Part shown: positions 26,379-58,657 of the stretch, in pieces | Layout: each line of letters begins with the position of its first letter | How positions within the stretch are numbered: position 1 is the stretch's first letter | Origin: an uncultured Bacteroidales bacterium | GTDB taxonomy: Bacteria > Bacteroidota > Bacteroidia > Bacteroidales > Bacteroidaceae | Direction of reading: 5' to 3' | NCBI GenBank assembly: GCA_902783885.1 | Contig: CACZSQ010000039.1 | Coordinates: 30,543-94,542, forward strand | Length of the DNA: 64,000 nt | Program-made: the position numbers and the translations under genes | Notes under the pieces: generated by a model | What the model was told of the DNA's origin: nothing | Seen by the model: only the letters and a program-made list of their open reading frames with translations | The model's database searches: none

Positions 26379-26439
26379 AATTCTCTAATTCTTGATTGTA
26401 ATAAATTGCCAGAAAGACAACAAGCTTCAACATTCAAAG

Positions 26440-26571
26440 CCTTAGGGCAATGGACCAAAACCCTTAGGGCAATAAGCCTAAACCCTTAGGACAATGAGCC
26501 AAAAGCCTTAGGGCAATGGGACAAAAGCCTTAGGGCTGTTAGCTTACACCCTTGGGGCTGCACCATTGTGA
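26440..26571. repeat. 22-bp tandem repeat, six units
   Basis: Exact 22-bp period: units start at 26440, 26462, 26484, 26506, 26528 and 26550. Each begins CCTTAGGGCAAT or a variant; the first four differ in a few positions, the last two are more diverged. It sits just past the terminator of the BY-kinase gene. Confidence 0.9.
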
Positions 26572-51225: not shown

Positions 51226-51257
51226 TTTGTTCAGTTCAAAAATAGTCTGTACTTTCG
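51226..51257 (+). promoter_or_regulatory. Promoter of the cobalamin-riboswitch operon
   Basis: TTTG at 51226-51229, 20 bp, TACTTTCG at 51250-51257 (one mismatch to TAnnTTTG). Puts the transcript start a few bases before the riboswitch. Confidence 0.7.
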
Positions 51258-51261
51258 CAGC

Positions 51262-51480
51262 CGAAACAAGGCAATCGTGCCGCCGAAGCCGCACGATGCA
51301 AGGGAATCCGGTGAGAGTCCGGAGCTGTACCTGCAGCTGTAATCCCCTCAATGCAAGTCTGTTCGTATAACGCCACTGGCGAGACAGCCTCAAGTTTAAG
51401 GTGTAATGAAAAAACAACAACCTTGGCTTTTGGCTGCAAGCTGGGAAGGCAGGACAGGCTGGGGAAAGCCAGAAGACCTG
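51262..51480 (+). ncRNA. Cobalamin (B12) riboswitch
   Basis: Conserved blocks in order: AATCCGGTGAGAGTCCGGAG (P3-like), GCTGTACCTGCAGCTGTAA, GCCACTGG at about 51372, GGGAAGG at about 51444, and the B12-box-like AAGCCAGAAGACCTGC at about 51466. This is an adenosylcobalamin-type aptamer in the leader of a TonB receptor gene, so corrinoid plenty should lower expression of the whole operon. The first 68 codons of the longest ORF in this frame lie in the riboswitch and are not translated. Confidence 0.93.
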
Positions 51481-51554
51481 CTGAGTTTTCGTTTAACGTT
51501 TATCGTTTAACGTTTAGAAAAAAGATGGCGCTCAGGAACAAGCGCTCAGAAGTA

Positions 51555-56973: not shown

Positions 56974-56982
56974 GAGCAAAAA

Positions 56983-57017
56983 CCCCTCTCCCAGCTCCCC
57001 CCTAAAGGGGAGGAGGG
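56983..57017. repeat. GC-rich inverted repeat (CCCCTCTCC/GGGGAGG type)
   Basis: CCCCTCTCCCAGCTCCCC, TAAA-type loop, GGGGAGGAGGG. Related copies lie inside the next gene at 57797-57915 and 58297-58339. Confidence 0.8.
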
Positions 57018-57070
57018 CCGCAGAGCAGAGAGGTTTGATTTGAATTGATTCATAAGTAAACAGATTCAGA

Positions 57071-58657
57071 ATGAAGAGAATCATCATCGCCGGCATAGGT
57101 CCAGGCAGCCCGGAGGACATCACACCAGCCGTGCTCAACGCTGTGCGGGAGGCAGATGCAGTGGTGGGCTACAAATACTACTTCCAGTTCATTGAGTCCT
57201 ACCTGAAGGCAGGCTGCGAGTGCATCGACACCGGGATGAAGCGCGAACGCGAACGCGCCGAGATGGCCTTCCAGCTGGCCGAGCAAGGAAAGACCGTAGT
57301 GGTCATCTCCAGCGGAGATGCCGGCATCTACGGCATGGCACCCCTCATCTATGAGATGCAGCGCAAGCGTATGGCCCAACAGCCAACGACCAACAGCCAA
57401 GAGCCAATATCCATCACCACCCTGCCCGGCATCAGTGCTTTTCAGAAAGCGGCATCGCTCCTGGGCGCACCCATCGGTCACGACCTGTGCCTCATTTCGC
57501 TTAGCGACCTGATGACGCCGTGGGCTGTCATAGAGAAGCGCATCCGTGCAGCTGCCGTTGGCGACTTCGTCACAGCCATCTACAACCCCAAGTCGCACGG
57601 CCGCTACTGGCAGCTCTACCGCCTCGTGGAGCTATTCCTGCAGGAGGGGCGCAGTGCAGACACGCCCGTCGGCTACGTGCGGCAAGCCGGGCGCGACGAC
57701 CAGGAGGTGAAAGTAACCACCCTTGGCGCCTTCGACCCCGAGGACGTGGACATGTTCACCGTGCTGATTATTGGGAATAGTCAGAGTTATATAGATAGGC
57801 CCCTGTCTAGCTCCCCCCGTGGAGGGGAGAACAAAGAGCGGCAGGCTGTCTTCATCACCCCGCGCGGCTACTACCATTCTCTCCCCCCCACGGGGGGAGT
57901 CGGAGAGGGGCTTGGTTCCCAGATCATGAACGAGAGCTTCCGCACCATCCTCTCCGAGATGAAGCACCCTGATGTGCCCAAGTGGCGGTTGTGGCCGTTG
58001 CTGCACGCCATCCACACGACTGTCGATTTCAGCATGGAAGAATGCTTGTGGATGGACGACCGCGCTACAGAGATTCTATATAACAAGGTGGCCGACGGAA
58101 GCCTCAAACATATCGTCACCGATGTGTCCATGGCAGCAGCCGGCATCCGCAAGGGCGCCTTGCAGCGACTCGGCATCGAGGTACACTGCTACATCAACGA
58201 CCCGCGCTCCAAGCAAATTGTTGAGGCTCTTTCCAAACCTCTCACCATGGGAGTGGAGTCACAACAGGCTGCAAACGATGCCAACGGAAACGAATACCCC
58301 TCCCTTGGGGAGTGGATAGGGGTGGGTTCCCCCTCCCTCACCCGCAGCCAAGCCTGTATGCAACTGGCAGCCCAGGAGTACCCCGATGCCCTCTATGTCG
58401 TGGGCAATGCCCCCACGGCCCTCTTCGAGATCTGCGACCTGGTGCGCAAGGGCAAGCTCCGCCCTGCCGGCATCATCGCCGCACCCGTCGGCTTCGTTCA
58501 CGTCTGCGAGAGCAAGCACGCCGTAAAAACCCTCCGCGGCATCCCCAAGATCATCGTGGAAGGGCGCAAGGGCGGCAGCAACCTCGCCGCCACCCTCGTC
58601 AACGCCATCCTCACCTACGATGACGCCGCCCAGCTAAAGCCTGGTCGCGATCTATAG
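57071..58657 (+). CDS. Precorrin-3B C17-methyltransferase / precorrin-8X methylmutase fusion (CbiH-CbiC)
   Basis: 528 residues carrying two enzymes of corrin ring synthesis. N-terminal methyltransferase (about 1-240): IIIAGIGPGSPEDITPAVL, VVVISSGDAGIYGMAP, TTLPGISAFQKAASLLGAP, FVTAIYNPKSHGRYWQL. C-terminal methylmutase (about 280-528): ESFRTILSEMKHPDVP, LLHAIHTTVDFSMEE (catalytic His), IVTDVSMAAAGIRKGAL and the GFVHVCESK block. Three low-complexity insertions interrupt it, encoding AQQPTTNSQEP, DRPLSSSPRGGENKER with LPPTGGVGEGLG, and EYPSLGEWIGVGSPS; all are in frame. Last gene of the corrinoid operon; other cbi genes are not in the window. Confidence 0.93.
   Translation: MKRIIIAGIGPGSPEDITPAVLNAVREADAVVGYKYYFQFIESYLKAGCECIDTGMKRERERAEMAFQLAEQGKTVVVISSGDAGIYGMAPLIYEMQRKRMAQQPTTNSQEPISITTLPGISAFQKAASLLGAPIGHDLCLISLSDLMTPWAVIEKRIRAAAVGDFVTAIYNPKSHGRYWQLYRLVELFLQEGRSADTPVGYVRQAGRDDQEVKVTTLGAFDPEDVDMFTVLIIGNSQSYIDRPLSSSPRGGENKERQAVFITPRGYYHSLPPTGGVGEGLGSQIMNESFRTILSEMKHPDVPKWRLWPLLHAIHTTVDFSMEECLWMDDRATEILYNKVADGSLKHIVTDVSMAAAGIRKGALQRLGIEVHCYINDPRSKQIVEALSKPLTMGVESQQAANDANGNEYPSLGEWIGVGSPSLTRSQACMQLAAQEYPDALYVVGNAPTALFEICDLVRKGKLRPAGIIAAPVGFVHVCESKHAVKTLRGIPKIIVEGRKGGSNLAATLVNAILTYDDAAQLKPGRDL
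57797..57915. repeat. Inverted GC-rich repeat pair inserted in the CbiH-CbiC linker
   Basis: About 33 bp at 57797-57830 (AGGCCCCTGTCTAGCTCC ... GGGGAG) is the reverse complement, with few mismatches, of 57879-57915 (CTCTCCCCCC ... GAGAGGGGCTTGG). About 50 bp lie between. The 119-bp unit keeps the reading frame. Confidence 0.8.
58297..58339. repeat. Further GC-rich repeat inside the methylmutase domain
   Basis: CCCCTCCCTTGGGGAGTGG and GGTGGGTTCCCCCTCCC; same family as 56983-57017. Encodes EYPSLGEWIGVGSPS between two conserved helices of CbiC. Confidence 0.65.

Follow-up and report, generated by a model that had tools for sequence, protein, structure and literature searches.

A Family of Short Palindromic Repeats Dispersed in Frame Among Protein Loops in Bacteroidota Rumen Bacteria

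The window analyzed here, a single stretch of DNA 64,000 nucleotides long, carries on its plus strand a cobalamin gene in which cbiH (cobJ) and cbiC are fused in one frame (57071..58657; 528 aa; TIGR01466, E 1.3e-88; PF02570, E 1.2e-56). Of 40 other genus genomes, 14 likewise carry the two halves in a single open frame, and in one of these (G040) the fused gene is adjoined by a second CbiC-like ORF of 229 aa (L031; G040:C10:51746-52294). Repeat-derived sequence lies at four sites within the window gene. Site 1 (57376..57407, plus strand) is an in-frame array of 4.6 copies of the heptanucleotide CCAACAG in CbiH, encoding QQPTTNSQE. Site 2 (57799..57829, plus strand), in the last β-turn of CbiH, is a forward 31-nt hairpin unit with two mismatches to the consensus that encodes PLSSSPRGGE, and site 3 (57881..57911, minus strand), in the interdomain linker, is a reverse unit identical to the consensus that encodes LPPTGGVGEG. 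Together they form an inverted pair spanning 113 nt and bracket the conserved native CbiH segment FITPRGYY (57851..57874, plus strand), of which T263-Y267 are invariant in 31 aligned rows. Site 4 (58226..58327, plus strand) is an insert of about 34 residues in a CbiC loop, containing two degenerate hairpins (58237-58257, direct repeat D11, and 58296-58316). A further copy, a rare TAAA-loop variant (CTCCCCCCTAAAGGGGAG), lies in the intergenic spacer (56980..57016, plus strand). Comparison with Rfam matched no known RNA at the window repeats; its matches, all at other places in the window, are RNase P, tmRNA, and a cobalamin riboswitch, the last of these at 51252-51499, ahead of TonB receptor genes and upstream of cbiHC.

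Repeats built on CTCCCC and GGGGAG are real, as the original prediction proposed, and exceed chance. Three strict palindromes of the form CTCCCC-N(2-20)-GGGGAG are present in the window (56995-57012, 57811-57829, and 57881-57899), against a mean of 0.07 after shuffling, with three reached in none of 100 shuffles, and the whole genome of origin contains 34 matches compared with one in its reversed control. Four copies had been counted at this locus; three of them are strict palindromes, of which only the two at 57799-57829 and 57881-57911 are intact 31-nt units, the fourth, inside CbiC (58296-58316), is degenerate, and a fifth was missed at 58237-58257. The inverted pair had been assigned to the linker between the two enzymes, which holds for its second arm but not for the first, situated in the last β-turn of CbiH; nor is the pair one 119-bp inverted insertion, because native FITPRGYY stands between the arms. 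The stretch CCAACAGCCAA noted in the methyltransferase is indeed there, as the 7-nt tandem array of site 1, and all genic copies keep the frame of the 528-codon ORF as had been claimed. The implied single class of repeat gives way to two, hairpins and heptanucleotide arrays, which use the same loops.

Folded as RNA, the whole pair (57796-57915) reaches −75.4 kcal/mol (z = −6.4), a value equaled in 0 of 200 shuffles. The single arms (z = −0.6 and −0.03), the spacer copy (−1.0), and the CbiC insert (0.2), each folded alone, do no better than shuffles, and thus only the inverted pair represents a notable RNA structure. This fold would suit a useful adaptation, in which the 113-nt pair, as a very stable hairpin of the mRNA, slows the ribosome between one domain and the next, or in which the Gly/Pro/Ser peptide is a selected linker, as might also be read from the presence of repeat peptide between the domains of CbiG-CbiF (L004) and CbiJ-CbiD (L255). 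We regard such an adaptation as improbable, however, given that the single arms fold like shuffles, that copies also occur within single-domain enzymes and at termini, that close relatives differ, and that in 26 of 81 orthologues all four loops are free of inserts of at least four residues. An AlphaFold model of CbiH-CbiC built from 31 rows (mean pLDDT 77, pTM 0.48) falls below a pLDDT of 50, apart from the C terminus, at residues 245-254, 265-278, and 392-419, which correspond to sites 2-4 and where the low values may partly stem from the few rows aligned at the inserts; site 1 shows no low pLDDT in the same model.

Relatives of cbiHC were sought in named genomes, and the best 80 of 520 were fetched and aligned with the window to give 81 rows. 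Their titles read uncultured Prevotellaceae, Bacteroidaceae, Bacteroidales or Prevotella, many of them from ruminants. Inserts of at least four residues are confined to four loops in these 81 orthologues, in agreement with the prediction of tolerated loops, the single exception being four residues at the N terminus of L145; when 13 of the 14 orthologues from the genus were aligned separately (G033 left out), G002 showed a 7-residue insert elsewhere in CbiC. Sites 1-4 hold such inserts in 31, 19, 17, and 15 of the 81 rows, respectively, with at least one insert in 55 rows and none in any of the four loops in the other 26. On a quick maximum-likelihood tree of 422 columns with the loops excluded, 40 of whose 78 inner branches are weak, a minimum of 15, 10, 15, and 14 changes is required at the four sites. 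The nearest relative, L083, at 93% over the tree columns, carries the same kind of heptanucleotide as the window at site 1; its site 2 holds another repeat, its site 3 another and longer one, and its site 4 is empty; 14 other rows hold other inserts in that CbiC loop.

The condition attached to the original prediction, that homologues might all carry the same residues as an old linker, is contradicted by this alignment, in which the residues are not shared and the site-1 array is absent from most of the 81 orthologues. An old conserved low-complexity linker, or local slippage without dispersal, would account for the abundance of G, P, S, and E in the cbiHC loops even where repeats are absent, and for those several site-1 inserts that are short expansions without a clear repeat. 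It is nonetheless very improbable, for near-exact 31-nt copies occur in unrelated genes and genomes where the reversed control yields none, and because close relatives differ and at least 10-15 changes are needed per loop, the alignment marks the cbiHC loop inserts as lineage-specific and not as an old linker. An assembly artefact of metagenome bins has a negligible chance of being the explanation; the named genomes come from metagenome assemblies or from isolates of uncultured bacteria, and assembly through hairpins is difficult, yet separate bins carry identical or near-identical inserts (L111/L112, L115/L126, and L134/L135/L137) and the frames stay open. As a separate observation on this locus, the cbiHC region of L025 and L026 (genomes G015 and G029) is 94.9% identical over 4 kb compared with 73-88% at 11 other matches, a difference that suggests recent transfer of the locus.

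Beyond the window the unit takes the form (RR)GCCCCTCTCNNNCTCCCCCCGTGGGGGGGAG(RR), with a core of 31 nt, and occurs singly, as a direct pair, or as an inverted pair whose GCCCCTCTC ends face outward. All 75 distinct copies collected are flanked by purines, with A or G at the position preceding the unit and at both positions following it. Copies were found by pattern matching because the unit is too short for nhmmer, which was too weak with 13 seeds. With at most two mismatches allowed, the unit is present in 19 of 101 genus genomes, reaching 70 copies in G015, and its reversed control is 0 in all of them. The strict palindrome occurs in 57 of 61 genus genomes in up to 156 copies (reversed control 0-12), and in a phylum sample it is matched in 160 of 198 genomes, mostly near the control level, with a few far above it (e.g., 51 vs. 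1 and 35 vs. 1). The TAAA-loop variant was considered as an intergenic sister family; only 5 copies are known, from 3 of the 101 genus genomes, too few for a judgement.

Dispersal over genes had been part of the original prediction, and the search found further in-frame copies in unrelated genes, among them those for the enzymes CysS, PurL, ValS, PheT, MetH, PFL, and UvrA; IspG (GcpE) and chorismate synthase are also among the hosts. The 34 strict matches of the genome of origin fall at 33 sites, three of them in the window; a Pfam scan covered 20 host ORFs outside cbiHC, leaving out ten sites, and identified a family in 17 of the 20 and none in three. The palindrome lies within or between matched domains in seven of the 17 (L008, L013, L067, L070 in CysS, L072 in PurL, L075, and L078), just N-terminal to the first domain in another seven, in which translation could begin downstream of it (L005, L014, L065, L069, L076, L080, and L082), deep in the ORF yet before its only match in two (L006 and L081), and C-terminally in one (L004). 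Two matches, L066 and L074, are apparent chance palindromes. A second scan, of 30 host ORFs from 40 listed, found a Pfam family in 25; UvrA (L256) and FGAM synthase/PurL (L072) are also named by NCBIfam, with scores below cut-off as expected for ORFs cut at locus ends. A repeat-derived interdomain peptide was noted in three fused cobalamin genes, namely CbiJ-CbiD (L255), CbiG-CbiF (L004), and CbiH-CbiC of the window.

Clean insertion is not the rule at these sites, contrary to what had been expected, as native loop DNA is often replaced instead of cleanly interrupted. CysS and PurL were matched in 38 of 41 genomes and 29 orthologues of each were aligned. At the two unit sites of CysS from the genome of origin, only one of the 29 orthologues (G016) carries units, and at the PurL site none does; one further unit lies at the CysS N terminus of G015 and G016. 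At CysS site B the genome of origin and G016 share a 33-nt unit with both ends exact, in a place taken up in other relatives by different codons or by heptanucleotide arrays, and the loop with the unit is 11 codons long compared with 10-18 in nine relatives without it. The PurL loop with the unit has 13 codons compared with 10 in 9 of 12 relatives inspected, and 36 nt stand for 27. Ten gene pairs of G015 and G029 were aligned, of which only ValS, PheT, MetH, and in part L264 were informative; in G015 the first three carry units at places where G029 has short native loops, GTGEPQ of PheT being replaced, although the insert boundaries are not readable to the base because identity elsewhere is only 73-88%.

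Heptanucleotide arrays were also observed in frame in loops that take hairpins, at cbiHC site 4 (L130 and L139), in CysS (L196 and L202), and in PurL (L164), and further arrays were noted in L008, L264, and at 57376-57407 of the window. They encode peptides such as TLNSQLS, HLSPLTS, QQPTTNS and similar, three heptamers making seven codons.

The replacement of loops invites a transposase-free explanation, in which hairpins stall replication forks, template switching writes the repeat over native loop DNA by microhomology, and those products that are in frame and in loops survive. The PurL, CysS site B, and PheT replacements (36 nt for 27, and the loss of GTGEPQ) are what such copying would produce, and the same loops are occupied in CysS (L196/L202), PurL (L164), and cbiHC (L130/L139) by heptanucleotide arrays, a kind of repeat that does not resemble a transposon. 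We consider template switching a tentative explanation with a real but lesser chance of being correct, and further evidence on both of its sides comes from the pairing of units and from the search for a mover.

The 75 copies derive from loci chosen on various grounds, among them cbiHC, CysS, and stretches of G015, G087, G042, G016, and G041 picked by hand, and their division into 57 clearly genic, 16 ambiguous, and 2 without a long ORF is accordingly not an unbiased estimate of the genic share of the genome. Four of the six frames are open in 75 of 75 copies. When the 18 ambiguous or ORF-less copies are dropped beforehand, one register accounts for 49 of the 57 genic copies, 21 read as PLSNSPRGGE and 28 as LPPTGGVGEG, the two peptides coming from opposite strands of one codon grid; a second register is used in seven and a third in one. 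Counted once per host family (33 families) and register, the 34 entries divide 28, 5, and 1; with the expected share taken as 0.4, a value that we set from the openness of the frames, p = 5.2e-7. The hosts without a Pfam family are the class C host, one class B host, and three class A hosts. The register bias could arise in part from solitary units that descend from inverted pairs.

Pairs were defined as neighboring units at most 160 nt apart with at most five mismatches. All 22 inverted pairs are of one polarity, forward then reverse (22 FR, 0 RF), with GCCCCTCTC outward, and at least three of them are homologous to others (window/L085, L070/L194, and L254/L259). The spacer is 39-54 nt long in 15 pairs and 84-122 nt in seven, giving total lengths of 101-116 and 146-184 nt, respectively, compared with 31-36 nt for single units; it is divisible by 3 in 20 of 22, and a short pair encodes about 35 residues. 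The seven direct pairs are spaced by 5 nt in four cases (period 36 nt), 20 nt in two, and 119 nt in one. Under template switching one would expect inverted pairs of both polarities, and only one is present. In 14 of the 22 inverted pairs, moreover, the spacer end lies within five mismatches of GACTCCTTATCCTC (background 0.4%), and because this motif is shared the pair may move as a unit, which again counts against template switching.

A mover was sought among RAYT transposases through the Y1_Tnp domain. No Y1_Tnp was detected in the genome of origin or in the copy-richest genome, G015, both of them incomplete; the six genomes whose Y1_Tnp matches reach E 1e-6 or better, also incomplete, contain no units, and among the eight unit-bearing genomes of G000-G040 two have a match, in both cases weak and partial. 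This absence of strong Y1_Tnp from these eight unit-bearing genomes is in keeping with template switching. In nine of 19 scanned Y1_Tnp loci, the repeat is represented by no more than isolated, scattered hexamers. RAYT as the mover of the 31-nt unit was set aside as unsupported, Y1_Tnp loci and unit-bearing genomes not coinciding, and RAYTs are not likely movers of that unit on this distribution; a RAYT link could exist for the wider palindrome class, which is abundant in two strong-Y1_Tnp genomes (87 copies in G013 and 156 in G027). Four RAYT-type genes (L046, L047, L049, and L050) have their own flanking palindromes, e.g., GCCCTGAAAGGGC and CCCAGGGC-N-GCCCTGGG, which belong to a different family of repeats. 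Among 11 inverted pairs and 50 solitary units, no direct repeat of 3-6 nt stood out above shuffled partners as a target-site duplication, as template switching would have it. Intervals of 2.8 and 4.2 kb between distant FR pairs were read for an autonomous parent, and no transposase was seen in their ORF lists; xerD (TIGR02225, over cut-off) lies in the 4.2-kb interval. The xerD of G015 (L289:3666-4643) has an in-frame repeat peptide, TTPLPHREGQGGES, near its N terminus.

Taken together, we assign a probability of about 80% to the reading that these repeats are a family of short, non-autonomous, hairpin-shaped dispersed elements behaving like protein-coding palindromic elements. The family is mostly genic in the copies sampled and is dispersed in frame into loops in rumen bacteria of the Bacteroidota. 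Its copies probably move, although comparison of genomes that are not conspecific dates no insertion. Copies that keep the frame and land in flexible loops, linkers, or termini would survive, and no targeting would be needed for this because selection on the protein suffices; the cbiH-cbiC gene would in this way have acquired two units and other repeats in its four loops, and the repeat peptides are probably just tolerated. Simple insertion does not explain the data, because native loop DNA is often replaced and pairs bracket native sequence in cbiHC, CysS, and ValS. Movement as MITE- or REPIN-like DNA served in trans by a putative enzyme has, in our view, a roughly even chance of being correct, and we favor it over template switching. 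A bolder reading, which we think unlikely, is that of a selfish DNA family adapted to genes, whose preferred register gives a tolerated peptide on both strands (PLSNSPRGGE/LPPTGGVGEGL) and which colonizes coding DNA and overwrites surface loops of housekeeping enzymes, possibly by hairpin-driven, transposase-free copying that also brackets native segments with outward-facing pairs; it would amount to a natural loop-diversifying system of a bacterial genus.

Translated palindromic repeats are best known from Rickettsia, and the present family comes from another phylum. Rickettsia palindromic elements (RPEs) are described as palindromic repeats of 100-150 bp within ORFs whose frame stays unbroken, different element groups being found at one locus of orthologues (PMC10969869, PMC3767692), and those of R. 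conorii bear a CGTC end tag (PMC3733652). The 31-nt unit resembles them, by description, in being an in-frame palindrome inside ORFs, in having PheT as a host, and in sharing loci with different elements; it differs in phylum, perhaps in its length (31-nt units or inverted pairs of mostly 101-116 nt), in the lack of a CGTC tag, in its measured register bias, and in sharing loops with heptanucleotide arrays. Intragenic GTAG/CGTC REPs are described as small in-frame hairpins, single or dimeric and sometimes twice per gene, with tRNA synthetase and uvr genes among their hosts, from families that are mostly intergenic and tagged (PMC3733652). The unit shares the small in-frame hairpins, the single or dimeric form, and the tRNA synthetase and uvr hosts, whereas 57 of the 75 unit copies in our non-random sample are clearly genic and the tags are absent, GTAG or CGTC lying near the left end in 1/75 and near the right end in 3/75 copies. 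The family thus works like RPEs and intragenic REPs, yet without their tags.

REPINs are reported to consist of two inverted palindromes around a short spacer and to be linked to RAYT transposases (PMC3116915, PMC2817692). The inverted dimers with short spacers (22 FR, 0 RF) recall them, but the four RAYT-type loci of the genus that were inspected are flanked by other palindromes and the strong-Y1_Tnp genomes lack the unit. MITEs are short and non-autonomous with terminal inverted repeats according to a review (PMC10969869), and the inverted pairs have outward-facing terminal inverted repeats of this kind, though many copies are solitary; unlike MITEs, the pairs have a short and variable interior. 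No target duplication stood out in the pairs and solitary units compared, and a parent transposase was not found in the two intervals read. Our search of the open-access literature, covering titles and the starts of abstracts with subscription papers mostly outside its reach, met no description of the family in Bacteroidota.

As a source of many natural experiments, the family can show which loops will take up new sequence, and it makes testable whether selfish DNA can be shaped for translation. It also calls for caution in annotation: when proteins predicted for these bacteria contain unusual PRGGE or PPTGG peptides, the source can be repeat DNA and not a conserved domain. Elsewhere in the window, a 22-nt tandem repeat of 4.6 copies (AAAGCCTTAGGGCAATGAGCCA) occupies positions 26436-26536.
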